A stretch of DNA of 64,000 bases, taken from contig JAKAKR010000014.1 of the NCBI GenBank assembly GCA_021813435.1, positions 1 through 64,000 on the forward strand, in the 5' to 3' direction. The translations under genes were made by a program, and so were the position numbers. Positions 8,953 through 39,321 of the stretch are shown in pieces. The stretch comes from Nanobdellota archaeon. Its GTDB lineage: Archaea; Nanobdellota; Nanobdellia; Woesearchaeales; UBA9642. Within the stretch, counting starts at the first letter, position 1. The number at the start of each line of letters is the position of its first letter. The notes beneath the pieces are model-generated. The model was not told the DNA's origin. It did not search any database and saw only the letters and a program-made list of their open reading frames with translations.

Positions 8953-8966
8953 TGTGATTATCATAA

Positions 8967-10912: not shown

Positions 10913-10977
10913 ACCGGACAATACCTGGCATTGCCTGCAGTATGTCGTTTGTATGGTATATACTCAGTATACTCATG

Positions 10978-13291: not shown

Positions 13292-13347
13292 AGTATACTC
13301 CTGCTTATTTTGCCGGCGTCTTACCGGTGTTACTCTTGTCGGTGTTA

Positions 13348-14361: not shown

Positions 14362-14647
14362 CTTGGACCTCCTGGAGGAGTTTTTGCGCGTATGCTGGCT
14401 GCGCTTCTGATGGCGCTTCGGGCGATACTTCGCTGCCGCGTTTTGCAAAATACTTGAAATACGCGACCTTCATCCGCTCGTAGGTCTCACGCCCGAATTT
14501 ATTGACGAGCGCTTTCTCTGCTTCGGGCGCCTCGAGCGCGTCATGTTCTCCGCGCAATATCTTCTTGAAGACGCCGCCATATGTGTGGATGCTGCCTGCG
14601 GCAGCGGAGAAATCTTCGACGAGTTCTGTGATCTCCTCAAGTTTCAT
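14348..14647 (-). CDS. Small charged protein, unknown
   Basis: The 99-residue protein starts MKLEEITELVEDF and is mostly helical and charged, ending in an Ala/Glu/Pro-rich tail. No known family is evident. Its 3' end overlaps the coiled-coil gene by 14 nt and it begins 14 nt after the preceding small gene, so it is part of the same transcript. Confidence 0.5.
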   Translation of the reverse strand: MKLEEITELVEDFSAAAGSIHTYGGVFKKILRGEHDALEAPEAEKALVNKFGRETYERMKVAYFKYFAKRGSEVSPEAPSEAQPAYAQKLLQEVQDDRT

Positions 14648-14661
14648 TTGCTGTTGATCGC

Positions 14662-14892
14662 TTATTTGGTGAACTTCTCTGCGCCATAGATAACTGCGCC
14701 GGCACCGACGACCTTTTCAGTGACTTTGGAGTATTTCTCCCCGTTCTTTGTTTTTTCCTTGAGATAGTTGTCGATTTCTGGCTTGAGCCCCTCGTAGATT
14801 GTTGCGCTGAGCGGCACGATTGCGCGCTTGAGTCTTCCGAGTATCCCTACTTTTTGTTCAAGGTTCTCTTGCTTATTCTCTTCGGTTCCCAT
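14662..14892 (-). CDS. Small charged protein, first gene of YkuD cluster
   Basis: The 76-residue product has acidic and basic helices and a weakly hydrophobic Gly/Ala segment near the end (VVGAGAVIYGAE). GGGGTG lies 8-13 nt before the ATG at 14892, and an AT-rich TTTATTAAAA box near 14962-14971 could be its promoter. No homologue is recognised. It leads the run of five minus-strand genes ending at 10978. Confidence 0.5.
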   Translation of the reverse strand: MGTEENKQENLEQKVGILGRLKRAIVPLSATIYEGLKPEIDNYLKEKTKNGEKYSKVTEKVVGAGAVIYGAEKFTK

Positions 14893-16175: not shown

Positions 16176-17102
16176 TTATTCCTTGCGCTTCTTCTTGCTC
16201 TTCTTGATCTCTTTTTCGAGCTCGAGTTCGTCAAGGAGTTCCTTGTAACGGTTTCGGATAGTGACTTCAGTTACGCCTGCAACATCAGCGACCTCGCGTT
16301 GGGTGCGCTTCTCGCCGTTCATGAGCGCTGCAACATAGAGCGCGGCAGCAGCGATTCCTGTCGGGCCGCGACCGCTCGTGAGTTCAATGCCCTGCGCTTC
16401 CTCGATGATTTCGACTGCGCGTGATTGGGTCTCTGGTCCGAGCTTGAGTGTTGATGCGAATCGCGCGATATAATCTGATGGATTGCTCGGCAGGATAGTG
16501 ATCCCGAGTTCCCGGGTGATGAACCGGTATGTTCGTCCGATCTCTTTCTTTTCAATGTTTGAGGCTTCGGAGAGTTCATCAAGCGTACGCGGAACATCAT
16601 GTCTGCGGCAGGCGGCATAGAGCGCTCCTGCAACGACTGACTCCATGGATCTTCCCCGGACAAGTCCTTTACGGACTGCAAGGGTGTAGATGCGTGAACC
16701 TTCTTCCTCGACAGATTGCGGTAATTTGAGATAGGATGAGACTCTTTTTAATTCTGCAAGTGCAAGTTTGAGGTTTCGCTCGATTGCAGTTGAGATCCTG
16801 TTCTGCCATTTTCTGAGCCTGAAGAATTTGTTCTTTCCTGCTTCGTCGAGCTGGTAGAGGTCTGCTTTACGGCCGACATCAGTCCCCAGACCCTGGTCGA
16901 ATTGGGTGTAGGAGATTGGCGCGCCGGTCCTGCGTTTTCTTGCAGCGGCTTCACTGTCGACTTCGCGCCATTCCTGGTCGAAATCGACCATCTTTTCTTC
17001 GACGACAAGTCCACAGTCACGACAAGAGATTTCTCCCTTTTCCTTGTTCCACGCGAGATTTGTCCCTCCGCATTCTGGACATTTTTTGACATACATGGAC
17101 AT
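16176..17102 (-). CDS. tfb: Transcription initiation factor TFB
   Basis: TFB bridges TBP-bound promoter DNA and RNA polymerase. The 308-residue protein has the N-terminal zinc ribbon (CPEC ... CRDCG), the B-reader/linker region (RRTGAPISYTQFDQGLGT), and two cyclin-fold repeats, each with a recognisable helix series (VVAGALYAACRRHDVPRTL and TGIAAAALYVAALMNGEKRTQ), ending in a helix-turn-helix and Lys-rich tail. GGGGGTG 6 nt ahead of the ATG at 17102 chooses that start over the GTG at 17111. Its product acts at the many TATA-box promoters seen in this window. The gap to 17395 contains several AT-rich boxes and GGTTGTTAATAACC, a near-palindrome. Confidence 0.97.
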   Translation of the reverse strand: MSMYVKKCPECGGTNLAWNKEKGEISCRDCGLVVEEKMVDFDQEWREVDSEAAARKRRTGAPISYTQFDQGLGTDVGRKADLYQLDEAGKNKFFRLRKWQNRISTAIERNLKLALAELKRVSSYLKLPQSVEEEGSRIYTLAVRKGLVRGRSMESVVAGALYAACRRHDVPRTLDELSEASNIEKKEIGRTYRFITRELGITILPSNPSDYIARFASTLKLGPETQSRAVEIIEEAQGIELTSGRGPTGIAAAALYVAALMNGEKRTQREVADVAGVTEVTIRNRYKELLDELELEKEIKKSKKKRKE

Positions 17103-17394
17103 CTTGAGCACCCCCTGCTCGCTGATTGTATACTATCGACGACAAATGAGGTTGTTAATAACCTTTAATCAATGATTAATGCCTTTTTGTCCCCCAACAT
17201 CAGCATATTTTGATTAAATTTATAAAAAAATGCTTCGATTATTTATAAAGTTTACTCTTTTTTTGCAAAGTTTTTTAAATTTTTCCGTTATCTCTGCATC
17301 ATTGTTTTTGGTTTTTTTTGCGGGTCAGGAACTGCGGGTTCTCGGATGCTGCTCTTTCAAAACATTTTTATAGGAGTGATTCCCTGAATGTTCC

Positions 17395-25368: not shown

Positions 25369-25416
25369 TTCCCCAGAAGGCAAGATAGGCGTTCTGACGA
25401 TCGGTATATATTGTTT

Positions 25417-25683
25417 CTAGAACATGCTCCATAACCCTTTCAGCACAAGATACCCGAGCGCGATAAAACTGACGGTTTCGATCCGGATAAAGAACATGAG
25501 CAGCATCACTATCCCGATGATCCCATCGATGATGCTGAAAAAATCCCCGAAAAAAAGGATTGCCTTCAGGATAAGGAATGCTGCGCCTGCAAGGACAATG
25601 TGAAAGGGGATGACACTGTACTGGTAGAGGATGATGATGACTGCGCAGGTGATGTCCAAAAAACCCATGAGTTTTCCGATCAT
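25417..25683 (-). CDS. Small membrane protein (three TM segments)
   Basis: The 88-residue protein starts MIGKLMGFLDITCAVIIIL and has three hydrophobic segments separated by short loops, ending LVLKGLWSMF. Similar proteins are widespread in archaea but unassigned. TTTTATATCC about 28 nt before the ATG at 25683 marks a leaderless promoter and favours this start over 25731. Confidence 0.65.
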   Translation of the reverse strand: MIGKLMGFLDITCAVIIILYQYSVIPFHIVLAGAAFLILKAILFFGDFFSIIDGIIGIVMLLMFFIRIETVSFIALGYLVLKGLWSMF

Positions 25684-25816
25684 ATGTTCCACGCATGATT
25701 CTGGATATAAAAATGTATTGCAGTCATGCACTGTATTTCAAAAATATGCCATGCCAATGTGCGAGTGCCGTGTTATCATGCATAACATTTAAATATGGTT
25801 CCTCTTGCCTCCCTGC

Positions 25817-26605
25817 ATGATTGATGTTTCTCATCTTACAAAAAAGTTCAAGGATTTCACTGCAGTAGACGATATCTCATTCCATGTGAACGAAGGGGAA
25901 ATCTTTGCATTCCTCGGACCGAACGGAGCGGGAAAGACCACGACCATAAAGATGCTCACGACACTGCTCAAGCCCACACATGGCGTATTGAAGGTGAATG
26001 GGCATAGTGTTGCAACACACCAACTTCTTGCACGGCAATCATTCGGGATTGTATTCCAGGACCCCAGCCTTGATGATGATCTTACAGCATATGAGAATAT
26101 GGACCTGCACGCGACACTCTACCATGTTCCGGTGCAGGAGAAAAAGCAGCGCATCATGGAACTCTTGAAGTTTGTTGAACTCGATACCCGCAAAGATGAT
26201 CTGGTCAAGACATTCTCTGGCGGCATGAAACGCAGGCTTGAGATCGCGCGCGGCCTATTGCATCATCCTAAAGTATTATTCTTGGATGAACCGACTGTAG
26301 GGCTTGACCCGCAGACACGCAACCATATCTGGGAATATATCCAGAACCTGAGCAAAAAAGAGAAGATCACGATATTCTTTACCACGCATTACATGGAAGA
26401 GGCTGAAAAGGTCGCTGAACGCGTCGTAATCATTGACCATGGGACAATCATCGCTGAAGAGACAAGCGCAGAATTAAAAGAAAAAACCGGTACACATTCA
26501 CTTGAAGACGCATTCCTTAAACTTACAGGAAAGACCATCCGAGATGAGGATGCAAGCCCTATGGATCATATGCGGCAACACCGCAGGATGTGGAGTAGAC
26601 GATGA
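25817..26605 (+). CDS. ABC transporter ATP-binding protein (DrrA-type)
   Basis: The 262-residue ATPase has Walker A GPNGAGKTTT (34-43), Q-loop FQDPS, signature FSGGMKRRLEIA, Walker B VLFLDEPT and the switch His in FFTTHYMEEAE. Its closest pattern is the DrrA/multidrug or polysaccharide exporter class. TTTAAATATGG box about 25 nt before the ATG at 25817 decides the start. Its stop overlaps the permease start (ATGA), so they form an exporter with one ATPase and one permease type. The substrate is unknown. Confidence 0.92.
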   Translation: MIDVSHLTKKFKDFTAVDDISFHVNEGEIFAFLGPNGAGKTTTIKMLTTLLKPTHGVLKVNGHSVATHQLLARQSFGIVFQDPSLDDDLTAYENMDLHATLYHVPVQEKKQRIMELLKFVELDTRKDDLVKTFSGGMKRRLEIARGLLHHPKVLFLDEPTVGLDPQTRNHIWEYIQNLSKKEKITIFFTTHYMEEAEKVAERVVIIDHGTIIAEETSAELKEKTGTHSLEDAFLKLTGKTIRDEDASPMDHMRQHRRMWSRR

Positions 26606-27345
26606 ATACAATCACTGGCTTATGGCTAAGGCAATTGAAACGCTACTTCAGATCACGTGCACGAATCATCGGATCACTCGGACAACCAATACTTTTCTTA
26701 TTAGTCTTCGGTTTCGGTTTCGGGCCGATATTCCAGAAAGCTGGTGCAGGAGATTATATGCAATTCCTCATCCCGGGCGTCATTGCGATGAGCATACTGT
26801 TTACTGCGATGTTTGCAGGACTAGAGATCATCTGGGATAAGCAATTCGGATTTTTGAAAGAGACACTCGTCGCGCCTGTCTCACGCCTTGAAATCATGTT
26901 CGGCAGGACTCTTGGCGGCGCAACAGTCGCGCTCATCCAGGGACTCATCGTATTTGCAATCGCATTATGCTTCGGATTCCATCCCAATTGGGCAATGCTC
27001 CCCCTCGCGCTCCTCTTCATGTTCCTTATCGCAATACTCTTCACTGCGCTCGGAACAGCGATCGCATCAACACTTGACGACATGCAGGGATTCCAATTGA
27101 TCATGAACTTCTTGATTATGCCAATATTCTTTCTTTCCGGAGCATTATTCCCTATCCAGACACTGCCGGTTGCCATACGATTCATCAGCACCATCAATCC
27201 ACTCACTTATGGGGTTGATGGACTGCGCGACGCATTCATCAGGTCAGGAGTATTTAGCGTCCTTACAAACCTGACTGTACTCATCATTGTGACCGGAGTA
27301 TTCCTTGCCGTCGGAAGCTATCTATTCTCGAAGATAGAAATCTAA
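26602..27345 (+). CDS. ABC-2 type transporter permease
   Basis: The 247-residue protein has six hydrophobic segments with the ABC-2 membrane layout and the family-typical FFLSGALFPIQTLP and NPLTYGVDGLR segments near residues 170-215. It pairs with the ATPase through a 4-nt overlap and, as a DrrB-like half transporter, would dimerise. It ends convergently with the MazG-like gene, overlapping it by 4 nt. Confidence 0.9.
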   Translation: MNTITGLWLRQLKRYFRSRARIIGSLGQPILFLLVFGFGFGPIFQKAGAGDYMQFLIPGVIAMSILFTAMFAGLEIIWDKQFGFLKETLVAPVSRLEIMFGRTLGGATVALIQGLIVFAIALCFGFHPNWAMLPLALLFMFLIAILFTALGTAIASTLDDMQGFQLIMNFLIMPIFFLSGALFPIQTLPVAIRFISTINPLTYGVDGLRDAFIRSGVFSVLTNLTVLIIVTGVFLAVGSYLFSKIEI

Positions 27346-27704
27346 TACTCGTTATATTTCTTGTTAGAACCACGGGATTTTTCTATCGGAAGGCGTAATG
27401 CATTCTTTTTTATCTTACGGGTTATTTCTTTGCTTAAATCAAACCCGTACATTTGAGAGAATCTAAGAATGAAAAACATGATATCAGCGAGTTCCTCACC
27501 GATCTCTGCACGCTTCTTTTCGTCCTTTAGGATTTCTTCCATCTCCTTATCGGATTTGAAACGGAAATGTTCTAAGAGTTCAGCAGATTCAGTGATCGCG
27601 CCGATCGCCAATTCTTTAGGGCTATGGAACTGTCCCCAATCCCTGTCCTCAGAAAACTTCTTGACTTTATCCTTCAATTCCTCAAATGTTACATGATCAT
27701 CCAT
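27342..27704 (-). CDS. MazG-like nucleotide pyrophosphohydrolase
   Basis: The 120-residue protein has the all-alpha NTP-pyrophosphatase metal-binding pattern E-SAELLEHF and EIGEELADIMFFILR, close to the dCTPP1/RS21-C6 branch, which removes non-canonical or excess dCTP. The overlap of 8 nt with the upstream isochorismatase-like gene suggests coupled translation. Confidence 0.85.
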   Translation of the reverse strand: MDDHVTFEELKDKVKKFSEDRDWGQFHSPKELAIGAITESAELLEHFRFKSDKEMEEILKDEKKRAEIGEELADIMFFILRFSQMYGFDLSKEITRKIKKNALRLPIEKSRGSNKKYNEY

Positions 27705-28260
27705 GGTTTATCGCATCAATCACTTCTTGGGTCGTTCTGACCTTTCCGATACGCTTGAATATCTGCTGGATACTTGTCGCATGACCAGTACTATTCCCTG
27801 CAGTCATGGCATCCTCAACAAATACCTGGTTGAACCCGTACTCATAGGCAAAACGTGCAGTACTCTCCACACCGATATTGGTCGAGATGCCGCAAAGGAT
27901 GATGGTTGTGATATCTCTTCTCCGCAATTGGAGTTCAAGATCTGTACCATAGAATGCGCCCCACTGCTTTTTAGTAATAAGGATGTCTTCGGGTTTGACT
28001 GTGATGACAAGATCTGCCCAGTCCGGACCAGGGGTTGCATGCATGACTTCATCAGCGTCAGGTTTGAGTCCAGGATTCGGCTTCACATTCACTAAGATCA
28101 CCGGGATATGCTCTTTTCTGCATGCATCTGCTAATAGATTCGCATTCTTGAGCACTGCCTCGCCTGTATAAGGCCCCTGCGTTCTTCCGAACACAATACC
28201 CTTCTGGAGATCAATGACCACAAGCGCTGTCGAAGATTTGTTTATGTCAAGATTTGCCAT
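27697..28260 (-). CDS. Isochorismatase-family hydrolase (Cys-lacking variant)
   Basis: The 187-residue protein has the cysteine-hydrolase-fold motifs: the catalytic Asp in LVVIDLQKG, the Lys in ILITKKQWGAFYGT, and CGISTNIGVESTAR. In classic members the last motif has Cys at the position held here by Gly (NI-G-VESTAR), as in the YecD-like subgroup. Its activity may therefore differ from amidohydrolysis. GTGGTG and TTATAAAATA upstream support the ATG at 28260. Confidence 0.82.
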   Translation of the reverse strand: MANLDINKSSTALVVIDLQKGIVFGRTQGPYTGEAVLKNANLLADACRKEHIPVILVNVKPNPGLKPDADEVMHATPGPDWADLVITVKPEDILITKKQWGAFYGTDLELQLRRRDITTIILCGISTNIGVESTARFAYEYGFNQVFVEDAMTAGNSTGHATSIQQIFKRIGKVRTTQEVIDAINHG

Positions 28261-28302
28261 AACACCACGAATATGCCATATTTTATAAGGGTTGTGAAAG
28301 AT

Positions 28303-28334
28303 TTGCGGAAAACATACCCCAAAGTATATGAAGA
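28303..28334 (+). repeat. Direct repeat, left copy, at toxin-antitoxin pair
   Basis: TTGCGGAAAACATACCCCAA is identical to the right copy at 28868-28887, and TATGAAGA follows in both after four or five variable bases. The two copies bracket the toxin-antitoxin genes. Read as protein, both encode LRKTYP-x2-YEE, so the left copy looks like a displaced piece of a coding sequence. Confidence 0.7.
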
Positions 28335-28354
28335 ATTTTTTGTTTTCTGGCGTG

Positions 28355-28675
28355 ATGGTCTATATTGTTAAGACTACTGCACTTTTTAATGCGGATTTTC
28401 CGAAGATCATCCCCCGACAGTTTCAGAGTGATGTGAGAAGGCGCTTATTGAAGCTCAGGGACAATCCCTTTGTGGGCAGGCCCCTGGGCGACAAATACTT
28501 TCGTGAACTCAAACTGGATAAGTTCAGGATATATTTCATCATATTCGAGCAGGAAGTCATCGTGTTCGTGGTTGCCGTAAGCGATAAGAAAAGGCAGAAA
28601 GAGACTATCCTGCTCATTAAGAAGAAATATCCTGAATTACGAAAGTTAGTAAAAAATATAAACCAAGACATATAA
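28355..28675 (+). CDS. RelE/ParE-family toxin
   Basis: The 106-residue product reads VYIVKTTALFNADFPKI ... RRLLKLRDNPFVGRPLG ... FRELKLDKFRIYFIIF ... VVAVSDKKRQ. This is the RelE/ParE fold: N-terminal helices, then a beta-sheet with the conserved L-x(D/N)NP-x-GxPL turn and R-x2F. It probably cleaves mRNA on the ribosome or inhibits gyrase; the catalytic set cannot be settled by eye. The start MVYIVK at 28355 matches the family; the ATG at 28328 lies in the repeat. The antitoxin ORF follows after 9 nt. Confidence 0.78.
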   Translation: MVYIVKTTALFNADFPKIIPRQFQSDVRRRLLKLRDNPFVGRPLGDKYFRELKLDKFRIYFIIFEQEVIVFVVAVSDKKRQKETILLIKKKYPELRKLVKNINQDI

Positions 28676-28684
28676 TGGTGTATT

Positions 28685-28789
28685 ATGACGAGAAAAGAAA
28701 GACTGATCCAGGAACAGAATGAGCTGTTATCAAAGTTGGTCCAAGGAATAGAAGACATAAAGGCAGGAAGAGTAACAACACTTGAATGA
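28685..28789 (+). CDS. Small antitoxin-like protein
   Basis: This 34-residue ORF reads MTRKERLIQEQNELLSKLVQ and then GIEDIKAGRVTTLE. The ending KGIEDIKAGR-like pattern is common in short antitoxins partnering RelE-type toxins, which usually wrap the toxin surface with a helix. The toxin-first order is like HigBA. It is too short for ordinary gene calling. No DNA-binding domain is present, so regulation of the pair is unclear. Confidence 0.6.
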   Translation: MTRKERLIQEQNELLSKLVQGIEDIKAGRVTTLE

Positions 28790-28867
28790 ATAGGATAGCT
28801 TGAGCGAAAACTACTTCTATGGTCAATTATTTCTCGAATATCACCTGTACCTGCTCCAACGGAAAAC

Positions 28868-28899
28868 TTGCGGAAAACATACCCCAATGCTTATGAAGA
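28868..28899 (+). repeat. Direct repeat, right copy, before radC
   Basis: The right copy begins TTGCGGAAAACATACCCCAA, as at 28303, 565 nt away, and lies in frame just ahead of radC. About 28 of 32 bases match. The gap from 28790 to 28867 shows no gene. Confidence 0.7.
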
Positions 28900-28921
28900 G
28901 ATACGTCCTCACCAAGCACGC

Positions 28922-29575
28922 ATGAGAATAAGAGACATCCCCCAAGAGAACAGGCCACGGGAACGGATGAAGAAACTAGGGCTTGGAGCGTTATCTGATG
29001 CTGAAGTACTTGCGCTGATCTTGCAAAAAGGCACTCGTTCTGATAATGTTATTGATATGAGCAATAAACTGATTGCTAAATATGAATTGTCTAAATTATC
29101 TTCTTTATCTCTTACCGAACTATCTACAATTAATGGAATTGGTGAAGCAAAAGCAACACAGATACTTGCTGCATTTGAACTGAATAGAAGAATACCTTTG
29201 TTTACAGGCAGTAAGATCAGTTGCGCTAAGGATGTGTTTGATAAATATCATTTACGTATGAAGGATTTAAAACAAGAAACATTTATGGTACTGGTATTAG
29301 ATACAAAACACACAATTATTAAGGAAGAAATTATTAGTATTGGCACATTAAACTCCGCGCTCATTCATCCTCGTGAAATATTTAAGACCGCAATACGCGA
29401 AAGTGGGCATGCAATAATCATTTTACACAATCATCCCTCAGGGGATTGTATGCCTTCTGATGAAGATTTAAAAATAACAAAAATTTTAAAAGATGGCAGT
29501 GTTATCATGAATATCGCGTTATTAGATCATATCATTATTGGCACCGATACTTTTTGGAGTTGGGCTAATGCTTAA
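28922..29575 (+). CDS. radC: RadC-family JAB/MPN protein
   Basis: The 217-residue protein begins MRIRDIPQENRPRERMKKLG and has the RadC order: a UPF0758 helix-hairpin-helix part (LTELSTINGIGEAKA) and the C-terminal MPN domain with HNHPSGDCMPSDED, the metal-binding H-x-H-x7-S-x2-D set. The old name 'DNA repair RadC' is not well supported biochemically; in many genomes it is carried by mobile elements. It is bacterial-like. The in-frame LRKTYP extension to 28868 belongs to the repeat. Its end overlaps the PIN gene by 8 nt. Confidence 0.88.
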   Translation: MRIRDIPQENRPRERMKKLGLGALSDAEVLALILQKGTRSDNVIDMSNKLIAKYELSKLSSLSLTELSTINGIGEAKATQILAAFELNRRIPLFTGSKISCAKDVFDKYHLRMKDLKQETFMVLVLDTKHTIIKEEIISIGTLNSALIHPREIFKTAIRESGHAIIILHNHPSGDCMPSDEDLKITKILKDGSVIMNIALLDHIIIGTDTFWSWANA

Positions 29576-29972
29576 AATATATTGTGATACGAATGTATTT
29601 CTTGATTTTCTTAATAATAGAAGTGATCATTTACGTCCACTCGGGTTGTTTGCGTTCGAGTTCTTTTCTCGAGGGTGGGGGTGTTCATTCCACTTAGTGG
29701 TTTCTGAATGGAATATTGAAGAATTAAGAAATTATGCTTCTGAAGATTCTATAAATGAATTATTGGGGTATTTTGAAGAGAAACAGAAATTGATTCGAGT
29801 CGGTTATACTGCTCAAGAGAAAACTGCTGCTATGGCGCAATCTTCCCATTGGCAAGATGCATTGCATTTAATTATTGCTACGCGAGAAAAATGTGATAAG
29901 CTTGTGACTAGGAATGTTTCTGATTTCCCTTCTTCTTCCACGATTGATATCTGCTATCCTGAGAATGTTTAG
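29568..29972 (+). CDS. PIN-domain (VapC-like) RNase
   Basis: The 134-residue protein has the PIN pattern: first Asp in IYCDTNVFLDFL, a middle acidic residue near SEWNIEEL, and SHWQDALHLIIATREKCDKLVTRNVSDF with two late Asp residues. Most such proteins are toxins that cleave tRNA or rRNA. No antitoxin ORF lies next to it, but translation is coupled to radC by an 8-nt overlap, so it may not be a classical VapBC pair. Its 3' end overlaps the convergent HTH gene by 65 nt. Confidence 0.75.
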   Translation: MLKIYCDTNVFLDFLNNRSDHLRPLGLFAFEFFSRGWGCSFHLVVSEWNIEELRNYASEDSINELLGYFEEKQKLIRVGYTAQEKTAAMAQSSHWQDALHLIIATREKCDKLVTRNVSDFPSSSTIDICYPENV

Positions 29973-30819
29973 AATCCATGTACGTTTTTACAGTATTTAA
30001 AATAGTCGATTGTGCATCTTTTTTTGCTTTTATTATTTTGTTATCCATATATACAGAGATATTTTCGTGATAAAATGTTAATGTGTCTTTGTAATTTATC
30101 ATGGTTATGTATTTCCATAGATCATTAAAGCATTCTTTTGTTTCTCTATCCCATCCTACGAGCAGAACTGCTCTGACAAAATCAGTAGTTGCTTCTATGG
30201 ACTCTTTAGGGGAATATTTAATAAGATCCATTAGTATTTCATTCGGCTTAGTATCTTGTGTACTGAGCAGGTTTTCTTTTGTTAGATACAATTTATTATC
30301 ATCTTCGGTATAAATCATTCTTTGTAATGCAAAATTATCCATTTCAACATATTTTTCTGTGGTTTCTTTGATGAATGAGATCTGATTCTTAGGAAAATCA
30401 TATTGTGATTCTTCATCACCCTGATATATTATTTCGCAGCACGGACCAAACCGATACCATCCGATGGGGAGACCTAGGTTGAATTGCTTATTTACTTTCC
30501 ATATGATTTTGTAAACTTGTGTTTTTGTCGGTTCCTTATTAGAGAATTTTTTTATTAATGCATATATTGATTTTATTATTTTTTCATCTTTAGGTTTTAC
30601 GGGAAGGCCGAAATAGTTGTTTTTGTCTTTGTAGAAAAATATTCGCGAATTAGAATCTGCTTCTTCTTTTACAAGATCTAATGTGCGCAATAATGTTAAG
30701 TATGATTCTGCTGTACGCCAATTGATTTCTAATGCGGTAGCTATCTCATTGATTGAACGCGGTTTTTCTTTGAGAATTTCAATGAGTTTGTAAAAATTCT
30801 TATCCCTAACATCTGCCAT
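29908..30819 (-). CDS. Helix-turn-helix regulator, large
   Basis: The 303-residue protein starts with a winged helix-turn-helix (about 8-65: LIEILKEKPRSINEIATALEINWRTAESYLTLLR..., with the usual wing). The remaining 230 residues are helical with no recognised family; a ligand- or protein-binding role is likely. The ATG at 30819 is leaderless: TTTAAATATATG lies about 26 nt upstream. The palindrome between box and start suggests autoregulation. It probably controls the PIN/radC group or the cassette that follows. Confidence 0.65.
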   Translation of the reverse strand: MADVRDKNFYKLIEILKEKPRSINEIATALEINWRTAESYLTLLRTLDLVKEEADSNSRIFFYKDKNNYFGLPVKPKDEKIIKSIYALIKKFSNKEPTKTQVYKIIWKVNKQFNLGLPIGWYRFGPCCEIIYQGDEESQYDFPKNQISFIKETTEKYVEMDNFALQRMIYTEDDNKLYLTKENLLSTQDTKPNEILMDLIKYSPKESIEATTDFVRAVLLVGWDRETKECFNDLWKYITMINYKDTLTFYHENISVYMDNKIIKAKKDAQSTILNTVKTYMDSKHSQDSRYQSWKKKGNQKHS

Positions 30820-30850
30820 TGTATGTACGTGTGTATATACATATATTTAA
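30820..30850 (-). promoter_or_regulatory. Promoter and palindromic operator of the HTH gene
   Basis: On the minus strand a TATA-like TTTAAATATATG (30841-30852) is followed by the perfect palindrome TGTATATACA (30832-30841) and TGTATGTAC, right up to the start codon at 30819. A repressor bound there would block transcription, so the HTH protein probably regulates itself here. Confidence 0.45.
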
Positions 30851-30965
30851 ATGTTTGGATTGATAGATACATAAAACCGCCATAATTGTGTATAAAAATA
30901 CATAACATTTATAAACCCGGAGGTATTCTTCGCTTTGTCTGTACATCCAGACGGAGAAGATAAAA

Positions 30966-31154
30966 ATGACTCAAAGCATTTTTGGACTGGGGTTAGGCGG
31001 AACTGGCATTGTCGCCGTCTTAATCGTTGCGGGAATATTGTTAAATGCCTTTAACGTAGCAAGTTGGGGGACTATTGCTATAGGTGGTGGAGTAGTGATT
31101 GGAATAGTGTTTGGACTACTCGGAATATTCGGCATATTGAGCAGATTTTTATAA
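30966..31154 (+). CDS. Small Gly-rich membrane protein
   Basis: The 62-residue product is almost entirely hydrophobic and Gly-rich, with two TM helices (about 12-32 and 36-58) and a very short turn. TTTATAAACC at 30909-30918 and GGAGA 8 nt before the ATG mark promoter and ribosome binding site. Holin-like or small-membrane-toxin roles are possible; nothing decides it. Confidence 0.55.
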   Translation: MTQSIFGLGLGGTGIVAVLIVAGILLNAFNVASWGTIAIGGGVVIGIVFGLLGIFGILSRFL

Positions 31155-31227
31155 ACCAGAATACACCTTCATCGAATACGTATTTGATGAAGAATGGTTT
31201 AAATTAAGTCGTTAAAGAAAGACTTAA

Positions 31228-33930
31228 CTATTTCTTTGCATATTTCCCTTTCTTTTCTGCAACAGCCCAATTTGCTGATTCAGAAATATATCCCTTGTCA
31301 TTTGAAATTGTATCTATTGCACTAAGTAATTCATCTTTAAATTTATTTTCATCAGCTTGATTGAAGAATGGAACGCCTATGATCTTATATTTTCTTGTTT
31401 CTATGAATTTTATTAAGTCATTGGTCTCAAACATGTCTTTGATCTGTATGAGCAATTTCTCTTTCCACTCGTCTGTTTGTTCAAGGAATTTACCTTTTGG
31501 CTCAATGAAGATTTGATATGTTATCTCTTTTCCTGCTTTATCCTTCATAAACATTACAAAGTCTGGAGCAAATGCTCTTCCATCTTCAAAGTTATAGATA
31601 ACAAAATGAAGTTCATTTCTCAACAAAAATATTTCTTTATATTTGCTTGAAAAGTCTTCTCTTATTAATCGATCTACAAACTCAACACATGCTTTTTCCT
31701 CAGATGTTCCATAATTTGCAGTAAACGCATACCAATCCTTATCTTCTAAGAAATCTTCTTGACCTTTTGATCGTTCTGATCCTATCTCGACCTTAATTAA
31801 TTTATTATGGAATATTTCATTGATTCTGCTGGAGAAGAATTGTTTTGTTCCTTTAAAGTCTACAAGATTATTTTTGAGTTTTTCCTCAATTTCGTCTAGA
31901 ATATGGACTATGGCTTTGAATTTATGTTCGTTTGAGAGATTGGTCACATCCTCCTTAGATCCAGAAAAATTTATTTTAACATCGGCCAAAAAGTCTTTCT
32001 TATCAATTAAATCAGTTACTGAAACTAATTCAGGAAAATATCTCTTTATATTTTCAAACTTGTAAAACTCCTTTCTGGAGATGGCATTCATGAAAATATG
32101 CCGTTCTATTTTCCCAACATTCAAAGTGACTGATTCTTTTGAAATATACATATTGTCATATTTATCATCAGTTAGTGCTTCAGTTACTGAACCCTTAACT
32201 GTTGCAACTTCATATTTGAAATCTTTATCTTTGACGCCCAGATCTGCAAATGATTTAACATTAGAATAATCATTCGCAATTTTCTTATTTGTAAAAATAA
32301 CTCCATTTTTATAGAAATTAGTTCTCTTAAAATCTTCTTTTAGTCGTAGTTCTTTCTCTTCAGTTTTATCATCCATAATCCCTTCTTGAACCAGTGCATT
32401 CTTCAATTCAGCAATGTATCTATGTTCGTTTGGGCTGTGGAAGTGTAATTCTTCAAGTATGCGTAATTCATTGTTGAGATCATCATCAAACTTGCGTAAA
32501 AATCTTTCCTGTTCCTTACCAGCGATCTTAAATGGAAAATATCTCGCTCCTCTACCTATCAGTTGGGCTTCAGAAATGGTAGATGGTGCTATCTCTCCTT
32601 TATAACCACCTCCTCCTGCCTGTCCTTCATATAATCTGACAATATCAAATAAGTTTAATACGTCCCATCCTTCATTTAGTTTTTGAACAGCAAAAATAGC
32701 TCGAATTTGGTTATCTGTATTCTCCAGAGAATTAATTAATATCTGATTCTTTTCTTTGGATTGTTCATCGTTAACACTTATGCACTTGTTCTCTGCAAAA
32801 TTTAGCTTTAATTTTTGAACAAGAATTTCTGTGTTGATTCCACTAGATTCAAAAAAGGCAAACGCACTTCGTATTTCGGGTATATCTGTTTTTTTCTTAA
32901 TCTCTTCAATATCTTTTTTCGATAATTTTTCAATTAATTCATGAAATAATATTTTGTTTTCCTCTGATTGTGCGATTGTCTGATGTGCTTTAAACAATAT
33001 TACTGGTTTAAGTTGGATTCCGTGTTTACTTGCAACATCTTGCCTGTATTGGTTAAGTATCAAAGCTAAAAGAATACGCCCTTTTGTATCTGTATCAGAA
33101 CGCAGGATCTCAACTTCTTTGGAATATCTGTCGTTTCTGAATTGTTTTAAATCATATTTGAATATGGTTTTTGCAGTGTATTTTTTTGCAACTTCAGGTA
33201 TGGCAAAATCCATCGTTGCTGTAAATTCAAGCATGATATTCTCTTTGTTCGACATAAATATGTTGTTTACTGTATGTTCCCAAGTATTCAATTCTATTTC
33301 TTCATCCTTGCCAAGCTTCTTCTTTGTTAATGTGTTTATGTGATGTGCTTCATCGGAAATTATTACTATTTTCTTGTCTTTGAAGTCCTCGTAAGTTAAA
33401 CTATTCTCTCTATAAGTATTGAGTAAGCTGTGCAATCCTTGAATTGTTGTAAAGCAAATGTTAATATCATCATTACTTACTCCCTCAAAATTATCAACTT
33501 TCACAATCTTAATATTTTTGTTATTAATGATTATCTTCTGATTAAAAAGATATTTCATAGATAAATTATCTAGAAAATTATTTTTGGTTTTCTCGATTAT
33601 ATTTGTGGAATTTACAAAAAACAAGAAGTTTCTATACCCTCTTTCGTATAAGTATAGAATCAAACCAGCCATTACAAGAGTTTTTCCGCTTCCAGTCGCC
33701 ATGTTATATAGCAGGTGAACTGGTTGCTCCTTGTCTGGGTATTCATTTAAGTAATAAAAAAATCTAGCAAACGCTTCGATCTGATACGGTCTCAACTCAA
33801 AATTTGGATTTAGATTCTCTTTTACAAATTTCGGAGTTTGCATGTGTGGTCGTAGAACACCAAACTTCTTTGCTGTATCTAACTCATCATAAAGCCACTT
33901 TCTGTGTTGAGCGAGTGTAGTCTGCGTCAT
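31228..33930 (-). CDS. res: Type III restriction enzyme, Res subunit
   Basis: Res carries the helicase and nuclease of type III restriction-modification systems. The 900-residue protein has Walker A NMATGSGKT (about 80-90), DEAH box IISDEAHHI, helicase motif VI-like QLIGRGARY, and a C-terminal nuclease with FAPDFVMFM and IEPKGK, the D-(D/E)XK pair. It begins 4 nt after the mod gene. The enzyme looks intact. It is the last gene of a long minus-strand cassette. Confidence 0.92.
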   Translation of the reverse strand: MTQTTLAQHRKWLYDELDTAKKFGVLRPHMQTPKFVKENLNPNFELRPYQIEAFARFFYYLNEYPDKEQPVHLLYNMATGSGKTLVMAGLILYLYERGYRNFLFFVNSTNIIEKTKNNFLDNLSMKYLFNQKIIINNKNIKIVKVDNFEGVSNDDINICFTTIQGLHSLLNTYRENSLTYEDFKDKKIVIISDEAHHINTLTKKKLGKDEEIELNTWEHTVNNIFMSNKENIMLEFTATMDFAIPEVAKKYTAKTIFKYDLKQFRNDRYSKEVEILRSDTDTKGRILLALILNQYRQDVASKHGIQLKPVILFKAHQTIAQSEENKILFHELIEKLSKKDIEEIKKKTDIPEIRSAFAFFESSGINTEILVQKLKLNFAENKCISVNDEQSKEKNQILINSLENTDNQIRAIFAVQKLNEGWDVLNLFDIVRLYEGQAGGGGYKGEIAPSTISEAQLIGRGARYFPFKIAGKEQERFLRKFDDDLNNELRILEELHFHSPNEHRYIAELKNALVQEGIMDDKTEEKELRLKEDFKRTNFYKNGVIFTNKKIANDYSNVKSFADLGVKDKDFKYEVATVKGSVTEALTDDKYDNMYISKESVTLNVGKIERHIFMNAISRKEFYKFENIKRYFPELVSVTDLIDKKDFLADVKINFSGSKEDVTNLSNEHKFKAIVHILDEIEEKLKNNLVDFKGTKQFFSSRINEIFHNKLIKVEIGSERSKGQEDFLEDKDWYAFTANYGTSEEKACVEFVDRLIREDFSSKYKEIFLLRNELHFVIYNFEDGRAFAPDFVMFMKDKAGKEITYQIFIEPKGKFLEQTDEWKEKLLIQIKDMFETNDLIKFIETRKYKIIGVPFFNQADENKFKDELLSAIDTISNDKGYISESANWAVAEKKGKYAKK

Positions 33931-33934
33931 TTTA

Positions 33935-35850
33935 TCACTTGTAGAAATTCTTGTTCAATTCTTTATCTTCTTTGCTTACCTTGAATTGTGAATCATCAAT
34001 CTCTGAAAGATTGACATACAATTGATTCTTATTAAGCATTTCTGCTAATACTTTCTTCTGTTTATCTAGAGAGAGTTCCTTGAAAGCATCATGATTGTCA
34101 TTAAACTTCTTAATATCTACATCATAATTCAAGAAGTAATGTTCAACCATCTCTTTCCAGATTTTTAAAAGTGCATCTGTCGACTTTGCAGATTCGATTT
34201 TATTAATAGCTTCTTCATTATGCTTCATTAATTCACAATAGATAAATGAAGCGTCGCTTTTATGATTGCGGATGACTTTTTGAACTCTTTTAACAGTTAC
34301 AGTTTCCACATAATCCATCTGTTCAGCAAGAATAAACCGTCTTTGGCCGCCATCTTCTTTATTTAGATCAAGCAAAGCATGGCCTGTTGTTCCAGATCCT
34401 GCATGGTAATCTAGACAATTGCGTTTTTATCCTCAGCTACAACCGCGTATATACAGTCATAAACATTGTATATTGATTTTGGGAAACTAAACTGACAACC
34501 AGGAACTAAGTCTTTGACTAATTTTGTTCCATATTCATTTGCGTCGTATTTGTTATCAACCCATACAGTTCTATACATTCCAAAATTCTTACCAATTTCT
34601 ATTTCATAGCCTGTTTTTGTTTTTTTAACTCGAAGAAAATTCTTTATTTCTTCTACACTTTGTCTAGCATATCTCCATTTTCGTTCATTGCCCTTAACAT
34701 CAATAGGCCACACATGAAACTCTCCTTTTTTTTCTTCGGTTTGGGATTTTGGATGATAACTGTTGTCAGGAACATCTCCAAATCCGACAATCTGATCATT
34801 CTTAATAATTACGGGGTAAAAACAATTTTTAGCGTCAGATCTAAGGGATTCACCACCCCAATTTCTCAAATTACTCCAATATATTTCCTCTTCATCTATT
34901 TTTCTAGAACCAATTAATTTTTTACCTCGTGGTATAACGAAATAAGTGTATTCATGTGAGTAAGAAAAGTTTGTTCCTTGAACTCCTCTAGGATTATGCA
35001 CTATCGTAACACAATGCTTCTCATATTCATCAAATATTTCATCCAAAAGAACTCCTAAATACGCCTGTTCATTATCATCAATAGCAACAATTAGAACGCC
35101 GTTTTCTGAAAGCAATTGTTTGGCTACCTCTAATCTATTTTTCATAAATGTTAACCAAGACGAATGCTTGAAATTATTATTGTAAGTAAATGTATCTCCC
35201 ATTCCACCACTATTATATGGGGGATCAATATAGATGCACTTAATTTTTTTCTGAAATTCTTTTTTTAAAGAATGCAATGTAAGAAGATTATTTCCTTTTA
35301 TTACGAGATTCTCTCTAATATTTCCTTCGGTATCTCTTTTTAAATCTGTAACTTTCTCAACACCTTTTGCAGTGAATTTTTTGAAGCCAGTTAAAACCTT
35401 CGGATCAAATAATCTATCAATTTCGTCTTGTGCTAGTATTTCATTAAAAAATATTTCATTTCTTTTTTGATCTTCTAAAGTCATTCCTCCTTCCAGAACA
35501 CAATCCTTGAAAGGCCATACCAATGCAACTTCTTTTCTTTCATTTAAGAATTTACCATCGATGTTTAACCCGATTTTATTTTTAAATTTAGTATATGAAT
35601 CACTGAGGAAGTTTTTATCTTGAATGTAATCTATGAATTTATTGATCTCGAAAACCCAATGATTTTTTATTTCTGTAAAGAATTTCTCTTTGATATCTTT
35701 ATCATCCAAAAGTGCTTCAATTAATTTTTTATCAATTTTAAGTGCTTCATTGATAACTTCGCTTCGTAATAATTCGCCTGATTCTTCATCAACGAAACGT
35801 AAGTCTTTTTTTAATAAGGTGGTAAGCTTTTTGTTAAAATCTTGTGTCAT
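33935..35850 (-). pseudogene. mod: Type III DNA methyltransferase Mod, frameshifted
   Basis: The first part (35850 to 34411, residues 1-479) has the N-terminal Mod region and catalytic IDPPYNSG (motif IV), and ends NAIV followed by TAG at 34411-34413. One base later in frame, [19 protein letters not shown] (the SAM-binding motif I) resumes and runs to 33935. Restoring one missing base after GTC rejoins the family sequence. Both parts look otherwise intact. Either Mod is inactive through a recent 1-nt deletion, or it is a sequencing error; no homopolymer is at the site. The ATG at 35850 follows GGGGT. Confidence 0.85.
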
Positions 35851-35901
35851 TTTTATACCCCGCAATGTTTCAATATGCTGTCTTTTTAATGTTTTCTTTT
35901 T

Positions 35902-36411
35902 TTATCTTAATCCAGATAGAACCATCGCTGCGAATTCGTGGCTTTGATTTAGTTGAGATTCATCGCCGTACAGATTCATATCTATAGTGGTATTTTTCCA
36001 TTCCGTCAAATCTTCTCTTTTATCTAAATTTGACACTAATGTATGTGCTAAGTGATTTCTTATATTATTTATTCTATATAAGTGTTTTATCAACTCGCTA
36101 ATTTTAAAGGATTTTCCTTCTGTTATTTCTACATTTACTATTGATTTTTTATTATTAAATATGAATTTGTTAGAGTATATCTTTGTTAAGAATTGATTAT
36201 ATCTTGATTCCTTAAAGATATCTTCTATTATGTGGATCTTCCTTCCAAAATCCATGTTGTCTAAAATTAGTGCATTGAGAAATGAACCTCCAGAATATGT
36301 TTCAGAAGCAGTTTTAAAGATGAAATGTGATATTATCATATCCATATAATTGTCTATATTCAAATGGCAGTGTATTGCTCTAAGTCTAAATGAATTAACA
36401 TCGTCACCCAT
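35902..36411 (-). CDS. HEPN-like protein
   Basis: The 169-residue helical protein contains INNIRNHLAHTL, an R-x4-H motif in the position typical of HEPN RNases, with an N-terminal helical bundle. HEPN proteins are toxins or effectors in many defence modules. It begins 2 nt after the RecB-like gene's stop, and GGAGAATAATC precedes the ATG. I infer a nuclease or sensor role in the cassette. The family is not identified further. Confidence 0.55.
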   Translation of the reverse strand: MGDDVNSFRLRAIHCHLNIDNYMDMIISHFIFKTASETYSGGSFLNALILDNMDFGRKIHIIEDIFKESRYNQFLTKIYSNKFIFNNKKSIVNVEITEGKSFKISELIKHLYRINNIRNHLAHTLVSNLDKREDLTEWKNTTIDMNLYGDESQLNQSHEFAAMVLSGLR

Positions 36412-36413
36412 GA

Positions 36414-37604
36414 TTATTCTCCGTCATTCTTTCCCAAACTTATTCTATGATTCTTCTCAATCTCGAAGTATTTTTCAACTTTTCGTCGTATATCCGAAGG
36501 CCAATCATCGACCGCTTTCTTTAGTGCGTTCGTGTCCAATCCAGATACTTCTTGCCACTTCTTTAATTTATGTAATAACTCTTCTAATTCTGTACGTTCA
36601 GGAGTACCTTTCGAAGGAACAGATACCGATTCATACTCCTTCACAGAGACTTTTTTATCTGAACCAAATATAGTATTTACTTCATGGTCTTTAGAATACT
36701 TAATCAACGCCTCTTTCAGGTCTTCTAGTTCTTTATCGAGTTCTTGTTCAACTTTCTTCTTTTGAGCATAGACTTCAGCGTATTTATTGACTAATTTTAC
36801 GCCGTCTTCCTTTAGATATTTATTTGCCGGCAATTCCATTGTTTTGTATTTATGTTTCCATGCAGGACAGATCTGCTGATATTCACACCAATTACATAGA
36901 CCGCTAACTGTTGGCTCGAACTTCTTCTCTTTCTCAACTTGAGAGATTACCCCCAATATCTCTTTCTTTAACTCTTTTAATTCGGAAACAGTCCTCTCAG
37001 TAGTGAGTTCTTTGTCAAACACTACTAGATGCCACACTAGCTTAACTTTCTTGGCATCCTTGAAATTCTCTCTAACCCATATAGAATATAGTGCTAATTG
37101 TCTATCCTCTTCGAGCTTTGATTGTACCGGCATCTTAGAATACGTCTTATAATCATGTATCTCATAATGACCTTTGGATTTTTCTAATAATAAGTCAATT
37201 CTTACATGATACCAATAATCCGGCTTCAATTCTAGCTTATATTCAGTCTCAACACCTATTATTCGCCCTTGATTGAATGGATGATATGTTTTATAATAGT
37301 CTCGGATGAATCTTTCTCCTTGCTTCTTATAATGCTCCTGCTTAAAGCCAGGATCCATCTTAACATCTTTATGCCATGTCTTATCCCACAAATCATTATA
37401 GAAATCAATGAGTTCATCAACAGTATCAAGCTTTTCCTTCAACAAATCTCGGTAAAGCTTCTCAAACACTTCGTGAACACGCTTACCGAGAAAAAGACTA
37501 ATCGCTTCAGGCAATTCGATATCCTCTTTATCCACATATTTAAATTTATACTTAAGTTTACAATCTTCAAAACATGTTAATTTGGAGTGAGAGTAGTCGG
37601 TCAT
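36414..37604 (-). CDS. RecB/Cas4-like PD-(D/E)XK nuclease
   Basis: The 396-residue protein has the RecB-family set: YSHSKLTCFEDCKLKYKFKYV at the start (S-x4-F-x2-C), HVRIDLLLE and EIHDYKT (Asp and D-x-K), and CNWCEYQQICPAW, which with the first cysteine gives a Cys4 cluster for iron-sulfur. This pattern is shared by AddB/Cas4 and other single-domain exonucleases. A charged coiled segment forms the C-terminal 120 residues. No helicase partner of RecBCD type is present. It is 4 nt from the GIY-YIG gene. Confidence 0.82.
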   Translation of the reverse strand: MTDYSHSKLTCFEDCKLKYKFKYVDKEDIELPEAISLFLGKRVHEVFEKLYRDLLKEKLDTVDELIDFYNDLWDKTWHKDVKMDPGFKQEHYKKQGERFIRDYYKTYHPFNQGRIIGVETEYKLELKPDYWYHVRIDLLLEKSKGHYEIHDYKTYSKMPVQSKLEEDRQLALYSIWVRENFKDAKKVKLVWHLVVFDKELTTERTVSELKELKKEILGVISQVEKEKKFEPTVSGLCNWCEYQQICPAWKHKYKTMELPANKYLKEDGVKLVNKYAEVYAQKKKVEQELDKELEDLKEALIKYSKDHEVNTIFGSDKKVSVKEYESVSVPSKGTPERTELEELLHKLKKWQEVSGLDTNALKKAVDDWPSDIRRKVEKYFEIEKNHRISLGKNDGE

Positions 37605-37608
37605 TTTT

Positions 37609-38070
37609 TTATTTACTCGAGTGTTTGCTAAACTTGTGTGTTGTTTTATTATTGAATTCTGGAAGTCTTCGGAACTTATCTAAATATTTTGCAATCATAA
37701 CATATTCATGTTTAGCCACTTCCCCCATTTTTTTCCAATCCCCTGTTTTTGGATTGGTGGTATCTGCATCGATGTACGAAACGGACGTGTATAATTTGCT
37801 TATTAATTTATTATACTGCGGGTACTTATATCTTACGCGATCAGCACCGCCATGTTGTAATTTTCCTTTGATAGTATTATCAAATTGCTTTAATCGCGCT
37901 TTTAGTCCACCTTTGGAATTAGTCATCCCTATATATATTATCTCTTTTATTAGGGAAAATTTTTTCCCTGTAATATTTTTATCGGTTTTTGCAATAATAT
38001 ATACCCCGGGATAATTGATTTGGGGGATATTGTCTCTGTTGTTCCAATCGGTCCATCTTGAAAATGGCAT
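37609..38070 (-). CDS. GIY-YIG nuclease-family protein
   Basis: The 153-residue protein has YPGVYIIAKT followed by EIIYIGMTNSKGGLKARLKQF, the GIY-YIG core with its Arg, and a Glu in AKHEYVMIAKY. A large insertion lies between the last two. GGTGAT 8 nt before the ATG at 38070 selects this start over 38082. It is followed within 4 nt by the RecB-like gene, in the same transcript. Confidence 0.78.
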   Translation of the reverse strand: MPFSRWTDWNNRDNIPQINYPGVYIIAKTDKNITGKKFSLIKEIIYIGMTNSKGGLKARLKQFDNTIKGKLQHGGADRVRYKYPQYNKLISKLYTSVSYIDADTTNPKTGDWKKMGEVAKHEYVMIAKYLDKFRRLPEFNNKTTHKFSKHSSK

Positions 38071-38095
38071 CACTTTTATCACCGCGCAATTTTTT

Positions 38096-38509
38096 TCACG
38101 TTTTATCTTCTCTTTGTATCTTATCCAATACGAGGTTAATTATAACTAAAACTATTGTAAACAAAAGAATAAAAAGACCGCTTCCTCTGAATCCACGAAG
38201 ACTTATAATGACACTCATAATTACCCCAATAGATACTGGGGCGAGTATGGCTGCTATAACTAATTTTTGGGCGCCCTCTTTTCTGTTCGACATATGTCTG
38301 AACTTATTAAACTCTTCTTCTATCTGTGTGAAATATTTAGCACGTTCCTTTTTGATTAGCTTATTGAAAATTATTTTTACACTAAAAAATATAAATAAGA
38401 TTGGATACGTGATATAAATAACAAACCAGAATAGGAGATGGAGAAGTATCGCTAATTGACCGATTCTTTTAAAAAAATTAATAATATCGTGATCTTGGTT
38501 TGTATTCAT
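38096..38509 (-). CDS. Membrane protein, four hydrophobic segments
   Basis: The 137-residue protein has TM segments at about 17-50 (probably two), 82-104 and 109-130, with a basic cytoplasmic stretch between. No family is recognised. It lies 12 nt after the zinc-ribbon gene and 25 nt before the GIY-YIG gene. A membrane effector of the cassette is possible. Confidence 0.5.
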   Translation of the reverse strand: MNTNQDHDIINFFKRIGQLAILLHLLFWFVIYITYPILFIFFSVKIIFNKLIKKERAKYFTQIEEEFNKFRHMSNRKEGAQKLVIAAILAPVSIGVIMSVIISLRGFRGSGLFILLFTIVLVIINLVLDKIQREDKT

Positions 38510-38521
38510 TCTGTGTGGTCT

Positions 38522-38665
38522 CTAAACATGTTTTCTTTCACAGTATCCATTGCCGCATTTAGGGCACTTGCTAAAAAAACAAATATTACATCCTACATAG
38601 CCGCATTTTTTGCAAATGTTTTCTGTTGTAGTATATCTCTTACAACTTTTACAGCTTTTGCTCAT
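38522..38665 (-). CDS. Small zinc-ribbon protein
   Basis: The 47-residue product is nearly all zinc ligands: CKSC ... CKKCG ... CNICF ... CPKCG ... C. Spacing suggests two ribbons. GAGGTG 5 nt before the ATG at 38665 sets the start. It begins 26 nt after the glycosylase gene. A nucleic acid or protein adaptor role is likely. Confidence 0.6.
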   Translation of the reverse strand: MSKSCKSCKRYTTTENICKKCGYVGCNICFFSKCPKCGNGYCERKHV

Positions 38666-38691
38666 AGTCACACCTCGTGTTGTGTCGGCGT

Positions 38692-39165
38692 TTATGTATT
38701 TATCTTCTCCCATTCATCTAATTTCTTCTTGAACGGCGTAGCGTTCGCAGATGATGTTGAAGGCATAATGAAGTACTTAACTCCATCGAATCGTTCGATA
38801 TGCTTATCGTACTCCTCAGCAGATTTTTTTCCGTTGAAAACAATCGTATTGATAGATAGATAATTATCTAATAATTTACCAATCTCGTTTGGTGTACCAT
38901 CAGTTATTGCAGAATCTGAACTCCCCTTTCGTTCACACGATTCTAAAGAATCCCACAGTCCGACATGATTCCTAAGCAATTGCTCAACGCGCGCAGCATA
39001 ACTGATCGTGGGATCAAAATCATATAATTGTCCCATGATCTTCCAGAATTGGTTTCTGGGATTCGCGTAATATTCCTGTTTTTTTATTGACTCATCGCTC
39101 GGCATTGATCCTAATATGAGAATTTCTGTCTTATCATTGACTACGGGTTCTAATGACTTTTTCAT
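38692..39165 (-). CDS. DNA-deoxyinosine glycosylase (UDG family 6)
   Basis: The 157-residue enzyme has ILILGSMPSDES, YYANPRNQFWKIMG, GLWD and a C-terminal PSTSSANA, the family 6 (HDG/MUG-like) pattern that removes hypoxanthine and perhaps other deaminated bases. GGGGGA 3-9 nt ahead of the ATG at 39165 and a TATA box at 39196-39203 (about 35 nt upstream) fix the start; the ATG at 39183 would lie before the transcript. It leads an eight-gene minus-strand cassette. Confidence 0.85.
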   Translation of the reverse strand: MKKSLEPVVNDKTEILILGSMPSDESIKKQEYYANPRNQFWKIMGQLYDFDPTISYAARVEQLLRNHVGLWDSLESCERKGSSDSAITDGTPNEIGKLLDNYLSINTIVFNGKKSAEEYDKHIERFDGVKYFIMPSTSSANATPFKKKLDEWEKINT

Positions 39166-39195
39166 GAATCCCCCAGTATCCATTTCTATATCTTC

Positions 39196-39203
39196 CTTTA
39201 TAT
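39196..39203 (-). promoter_or_regulatory. TATA box of the eight-gene cassette
   Basis: On the minus strand the sequence reads CTATATAAAGG, about 26 nt before the predicted transcript start. It is the only strong TATA-like box seen ahead of any gene from here down to res (31228), which supports one long transcript. Confidence 0.5.
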
Positions 39204-39250
39204 AGTTAACGCAAATATTCTATATGTTTTGTGCTCACTCCCCGCACGAA

Positions 39251-39321
39251 AAAATCCGACTTGCGGATTTTAGCGTCCTAAAAATTCGCTTTTCTGGGCA
39301 GAATCCTCTTTGCGAATTTTT
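39251..39321. repeat. Tandem hairpins between divergent genes
   Basis: AAAATCCG/CGGATTTT (39251-39258/39264-39271) closes loop ACTTG. AAAAATTCGC/GCGAATTTTT (39280-39289/39312-39321) is a perfect 10-bp stem around 22 nt that contain GCAGAATCCT. The pieces ACTTGC and AATCCT recall the loop of the hairpin element at 1.5 and 5.7 kb, so this may be a diverged relative. Confidence 0.45.

Follow-up and report, generated by a model that had tools for sequence, protein, structure and literature searches.

PMC5704561 describes solo-Cas4 genes next to restriction-modification genes in a number of DPANN archaea, along with fusions of UvrD and Cas4 beside Mod and Res; prior work also includes PMC12988326 and PMC10609329. 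Little is known about what destroys the DNA pieces that restriction opens in small archaea. Here we describe a run of defence-type genes in a 64,000-nucleotide stretch of a Nanobdellota archaeon (contig JAKAKR010000014.1 of assembly GCA_021813435.1, positions 1 to 64,000; below, the window is this whole stretch), in which a RecB/Cas4-like nuclease shares a strand with a type III restriction-modification pair. We consider it probable that the run is a composite defence island, holding a Cas4-type nuclease and a type III module with a split mod, rather than a conserved eight-gene system. That Cas4-like nucleases occur beside restriction systems is already published (PMC5704561), and a literature search by listings, with subscription papers mostly outside it, found no paper listed as describing this gene set.

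A first-pass annotation, made from the letters alone, had proposed an eight-gene cassette around the type III pair. Our reading of the open reading frames (ORFs) bore out the collinearity of eight predicted protein kinds, all encoded on the minus strand between 39183 and 31228 (Table 1), and with the start codons of that annotation the gaps of about 26, 12, 25, 4, 2, 51, and 4 nucleotides were reproduced. The count of eight holds for the protein kinds in the row but not for the genes, as mod consists of two ORFs in different frames.

A type III pair with a split mod

Mod and res lie next to each other on one strand with a gap of 4 bases. Res matches REase_III (E 7.6e-137) and ResIII (E 1.7e-32), and the motifs TGSGKT, DEAH, PDF, and EPKGK were located in it, giving both the superfamily 2 helicase motifs and those of a PD-(D/E)XK nuclease. 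The 5' part of mod matches PF12564 (E 2.2e-21), PF01555 (E 1.1e-13), and MTase_III (1e-98), and the 3' part MTase_III (1.2e-38). Aligned to an intact relative, in which motif I starts at residue 481, the two parts cover residues 1-479 and 493-638, both at about 79% identity (79% for the 3' part over residues 493-638). Motifs IV and I are thus not in one open frame: the domains and the DPPY of motif IV are present, and the break falls ahead of motif I. As the frame breaks just before the motif that binds S-adenosylmethionine, the product is a 484-residue Mod without that motif and without the C-terminus. The locus resembles known type III restriction-modification in that Mod has PF12564, PF01555, and DPPY, Res has helicase and C-terminal nuclease motifs, and mod is directly ahead of res; it differs in the split of mod before motif I and in the six other genes upstream.

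The truncated Mod is likely inactive, and the type III module would then be unable to methylate. Type III Res requires Mod for both recognition and cutting, and Res would therefore be idle if Mod is dead. We picture the pair as a transferable module whose Mod has probably died here. It is doubtful, though well within consideration, that the pair is instead active and that an error of sequencing or assembly has produced the split. Single-base faults do occur in metagenome assemblies, Res has stayed open across 900 codons, and both parts of mod have kept their similarity to the intact relative. Set against these, the protein search found the truncated Mod on 7 contigs, in every case with the same sequence, and the best 120 of 7995 scored matches include no intact Mod more than 79% identical. 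The 7 contigs may nevertheless come from one set of reads assembled several times, in which case they could share one fault, and this weighs against our reading of a dead Mod. Elsewhere, Mod has at least 580 residues in 33 of the 45 res loci counted, and several of the remainder are cut by contig ends.

A Cas4-type nuclease and its restriction neighbours

The RecB-like protein matches PF12705 (PDDEXK_1) with E 8.8e-29 and Cas_Cas4 with E 6.3e-05. In an alignment of 55 members, the nuclease residues H44, D137, D151, and K153 and the cysteines C15, C237, C240, and C246 are kept in 54-55 sequences. The placement of the four cysteines matches that in the iron–sulfur nucleases Cas4 and AddB, and by analogy the protein may bind an iron–sulfur cluster and degrade DNA as these two do. 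PADLOC, run on ten proteins of the window, gave weak Cas4 matches to the RecB-like protein and weak regulator matches to a 303-aa gene, and no match to cas1, cas2, or an effector among the ten. In its PF12705 and Cas4 matches, in its conserved cysteines and nuclease residues, and in adjoining restriction-modification genes in DPANN archaea, the protein is like the solo-Cas4/pfam12705 nucleases of PMC5704561. The type III link given there consists of UvrD-Cas4 fusions, whereas the window protein has no helicase and carries a C-terminal extension of its own.

Of 278 other genomes of the phylum, 86 have a RecB-like match (E <= 1e-3), 71 of these with E <= 4.2e-35. To describe their surroundings, we compared 140 genes at most two places from RecB with 140 genes at least six places away, both drawn at random from the same 46 loci; eight of the 54 RecB loci are omitted from this comparison (seven of a short or partial class, and L027), and L026 was excluded from the neighbour work because its RecB had been missed in gene calling. 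PADLOC matched 369 families among the near genes and 28 among the distant ones, counted as families and not as genes. The Pfam families near RecB included ResIII (7), Eco57I (5), N6_Mtase (5), the CARF-type HFX_2341_N (4), and Bro-N (4), followed by GmrSD_N, HsdM_N, and HSDR_N (3 each), and none of these eight was in the control's top 25 families. Genes for type I, IIG, or IV restriction, helicases, or CARF regulators lay within five places of RecB in 13 of the 54 loci, a rough fraction since the seeds came partly from those same loci and the loci are high-scoring matches.

On a tree of the 55 proteins, the window RecB groups with those of L023 and L134 with a Shimodaira–Hasegawa-like approximate likelihood-ratio support (SH-aLRT) of 99, and both of these, its two nearest relatives and among the 13 loci just counted, are near Eco57I-type (type IIG) and CARF genes: L023 has CARF-wHTH, GmrSD (type IV), and Eco57I-type genes as neighbours, and L134 has a CARF-wHTH gene, a NucS-like nuclease, two methyltransferases, and a T5orf172-ResIII protein. 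Restriction adjacency changes 8 times on the tree compared with 12.5 times when shuffled, and none of 500 shuffles was as low. At a further locus, L136, RecB and a type IIG gene share their run with a HepT-type toxin. The suggestion that the extra genes belong with restriction thus finds backing for one of them, the RecB-like family being enriched near restriction genes, and on these genomic data the Cas4-type nuclease is the one part of the run for which the data speak for a repeated association with restriction genes.

We predict that the Cas4-type nuclease degrades DNA ends opened by whichever restriction enzyme partners it; the RecB-like protein would act after the restriction cut and widen the damage to the invading DNA. 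With Res idle, the Cas4-like and GIY-YIG nucleases would be the parts most likely to act, and the GIY-YIG protein, the ORFan, the membrane protein, the zinc ribbon, and the glycosylase may be separately acquired cargo carried on one transcript. A broader proposal, which we hold tentatively, is that the iron–sulfur Cas4-type lineage is a shared end-degrading effector for type I, IIG, III, and IV modules, often under a CARF-type sensor. If so, the window would be the first seen case of this lineage with a type III partner and without a CARF gene, and the shared role could be tested with one purified protein. A single Cas4-type lineage serving several restriction types would link a nuclease fold of CRISPR adaptation to innate DNA defence.

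The genes occupy an A+T-rich block, with a G+C content of 0.335 over 28.3-39.3 kb compared with 0.43 for the whole window, that sits between ftsY-like and lhr-like helicase genes (named by eye). The distance between these two is 1.7, 2.6, 3.1, and 7.7 kb in four relatives, with other genes between, and about 14 kb in the window (25369-39309); the contig of a fifth relative stops short of ftsY. No match to a cassette gene was found in the ftsY-lhr spacer stretches of the relatives. The spacer is a variable spot. With its restriction, nuclease, and toxin-like (ParE, PIN) genes in such a place, the locus is like the defence islands made of interchangeable modules, and unlike them in that here one nuclease lineage recurs beside several restriction types.

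Several points weigh against our reading of a restriction-tied nuclease in a composite island. By the seeds used, no neighbour of the restriction or CARF kind was seen at 41 of the 54 RecB loci, and the nuclease may consequently be a housekeeping one. Counting PADLOC families exaggerates the contrast, as a single protein may match a large number of them, one large methyltransferase alone matching 34; the near set also holds more residues (46,189 vs. 37,442), and the control has defence matches of its own (mad2 4, SspA 3, DndA 3, REase_I 1). Finally, the 54 loci are high-scoring matches and not a random sample. The first of these points would suit a run of mere bystanders, that is, unrelated A+T-rich cargo in an insertion hotspot with the RecB-like protein as a repair nuclease without a tie to restriction, and so would the different genes that the ftsY-lhr spacer carries in related genomes. 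We nevertheless find this explanation unlikely, given the enrichment of the neighbours relative to control genes and the clustering of the trait on the tree, where the window lies inside a restriction-adjacent clade.

The gene row at other type III loci

Defence-type genes that stand in a tight row in a metagenome do not by that fact alone make up a system. The first-pass annotation had seen in the row a possible extended or composite system and had proposed as a check the recurrence of the same extra genes around res and mod in other genomes. We collected relatives of Res at 49 loci, 48 from named genome records and one from a virus-like contig; genomes were scanned with short peptides of Res that had to match exactly, which finds close relatives only, and 8 of the 49 loci are shorter than 8 kb. 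With matches to cassette genes counted at E <= 0.01, Mod was present in 48 of the 49, and relatives of the HEPN-like, RecB-like, GIY-YIG, membrane, zinc-ribbon, and glycosylase proteins in none. Within the phylum, Res had a full-length match in 6 of 350 other genomes, a partial one in one, and a short one in three, and no full-length match in 78 relatives. Eight res loci of the phylum, from seven genomes, were read and contained Mod in seven cases and the other cassette genes in none. Among 218 loci in all, with mod and res taken together as a single kind, cassette genes of at least two kinds were found only on stretches of the window's own genome, and the same gene row was absent from every other genome stretch examined. 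The expected recurrence was, in other words, not seen.

Other genes are found in these places. Of the 45 loci counted, 16 (in the series L054-L091) have genes of at least 190 residues inserted between mod and res (the count omits two res loci having mod after res), and the three inserted genes looked up were RhuM, Bro-N, and Fic. The nearest parallel to the window is L211 (6771-13465), where a zinc-ribbon-like gene precedes mod and a DUF2779/RNase H-like nuclease follows res by one base. Pfam names the C-terminal part of this nuclease only, and its N-terminal part looks Cas4/RecB-like by eye. The stretch fetched for L212, from another genome of the phylum, is identical over 15,536 bases, and the two therefore make one case. 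The locus is like the window in having a RecB-type nuclease adjoining type III genes and a zinc-ribbon-like gene in the same phylum; it differs in the nuclease family, with its RNase H-like C-terminal part, and in the position of the nuclease, which is after res there and before mod in the window. Judged from these sequences, a RecB-type nuclease beside type III genes has arisen more than once in the phylum, through a different family. As a separate observation, L214 carries a second type III mod-res pair at 5758-14784, beside genes for an lhr-like helicase and a phage integrase.

An extended type III system, with the six upstream genes as dedicated partners of Mod and Res on one transcript, is thus quite improbable, and we rejected it as the main explanation since none of the res loci examined has the extra genes next to it again. 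The tight collinear spacing would fit it, as would the nuclease after res and the zinc-ribbon-like gene before mod at the one unrelated locus of the phylum (L211/L212) and the UvrD-Cas4 fusions beside Mod and Res in PMC5704561. Against it stand the lack of relatives of the extra genes at all 49 res loci of the collected set and at all 8 of the phylum, the other genes that lie between mod and res at 16 of 45 loci, the split mod, and the fact that the HEPN-like gene is an ORFan. Of what was first proposed, a defence-type cluster around type III genes is supported, and the extended system is not borne out. The outcome that had been named as telling against a joint system, homologues of the extra genes never lying beside type III loci, was largely what we observed, L211/L212 being an exception in part.

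Layout and the remaining genes of the run

Table 1. Genes of the run in the window, listed in the order of the minus strand
Feature	Positions	Strand	Basis or remark
DNA-deoxyinosine (hypoxanthine) glycosylase, uracil-DNA glycosylase (UDG) superfamily, first gene of the run	38692..39183	-	TIGR04274, PF03167
Small zinc-ribbon-like protein	38522..38665	-	cysteine pairs read directly; later ATG chosen, ORF opens at 38713
Small membrane protein, 3-4 hydrophobic segments	38096..38509	-	hydropathy
GIY-YIG nuclease-like protein	37609..38082	-	homologues, alignment
RecB/Cas4-like nuclease: PD-(D/E)XK domain, four conserved cysteines, C-terminal extension	36414..37604	-	PF12705, Cas_Cas4
ORFan, 169 aa, labelled 'HEPN-like' in the first-pass annotation	35902..36411	-	no relatives found
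mod 5' part, 484 aa, DPPY (motif IV), stops before motif I	34411..35865	-	PF12564, PF01555, MTase_III
mod 3' part, other frame, 146 aa	33935..34375	-	MTase_III
res, 900 aa, intact ORF; TGSGKT, DEAH, C-terminal PD...ExK	31228..33930	-	REase_III

The spacing makes one transcript for the run plausible. The first-pass annotation had placed the only strong TATA box ahead of the first gene, and the scan did not bear this out: the sequence TATATAAA is found 21 bases ahead of the glycosylase ATG (39183), and both exact consensus matches lie inside genes. In the region, a scan with a simple 8-base consensus gave 2 exact matches compared with 5.0 in mononucleotide shuffles, and 50 compared with 70 when one mismatch was allowed. 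A unique promoter at the first gene is thus not singled out by such a scan.

The GIY-YIG label is carried by core residues conserved over 30 proteins and by the name of a homologue, and on these grounds the protein is probably what it had been called. It has no Pfam match; it has 259 homologues at E <= 0.01, one of them named 'GIY-YIG domain' in its source, and an alignment of 30 proteins shows a core with invariant or near-invariant G/Y, R, H, E, and N positions. One degraded match was found in 350 other genomes of the phylum and two weak partial ones in plasmid MT-A70 methyltransferase genes, and no relatives were found in viral contigs, phages, or the 78 relatives.

The HEPN label, by comparison, is weakly based. 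It goes back to one RNHLAH motif, and when this protein is shuffled, 11% of the shuffles contain a motif of that form; further, no family match has any weight, the best one in Pfam being to a family of unknown function (E 0.078). A search of 5.77 billion sequences kept, of 14 scored candidates, only the protein's own entry at E <= 0.01; no relatives were found in the 78 related genomes, viral contigs, or plasmids. An AlphaFold model from the single sequence had a mean predicted local distance difference test (pLDDT) score of 41.9 and is uninformative on the fold. The protein annotated as having four transmembrane segments is a membrane protein as proposed, with hydropathy giving three to four segments, and has 2 weak matches among 278 other genomes of the phylum. 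Family searches gave no match of weight for the zinc-ribbon-like protein.

The glycosylase matches TIGR04274 (E 2.8e-55, above cut-off) and PF03167 (E 2.8e-12), and among the 78 relatives it has a homologue in one (G006), with no other cassette gene near. For its sake we considered restriction by base excision, in which the glycosylase would strip bases from invading DNA, leaving abasic sites to be cut by the GIY-YIG or Cas4-like nuclease, and set this aside as very improbable, since the TIGR04274 deoxyinosine glycosylase family is known for repair, the glycosylase is in no res locus examined, and no co-occurrence with other cassette genes was seen, G006 included. What speaks for it is the glycosylase's place as the run's first gene, its strong family match, and the precedent of restriction glycosylases and of phage restriction by uracil glycosylases in PMC10273834.

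Further toxin-like genes adjoin the island. A ParE-type toxin gene lies at 28328-28675 (PF05016, E 3.2e-07), and RadC, PIN, and the 303-aa winged-helix gene form a set at 28868-30819. The PIN and winged-helix genes converge with overlapping 3' ends in the window and in all five relatives read (L193-L197), RadC is beside this pair in the window, L193, and L194, and methyltransferase, HsdR, or GmrSD genes are near it in L194, L195, and L197. From its recurrence, the set has the look of a defence module of toxin-antitoxin-like type. Elsewhere in the window, at 16176-17111, a TFIIB-like ORF was read by eye; such genes, with the kinship of the relatives, mark the organism as archaeal. A glycine-rich hydrophobic ORF of 62 residues, at 30966-31154, separates the winged-helix gene from res.

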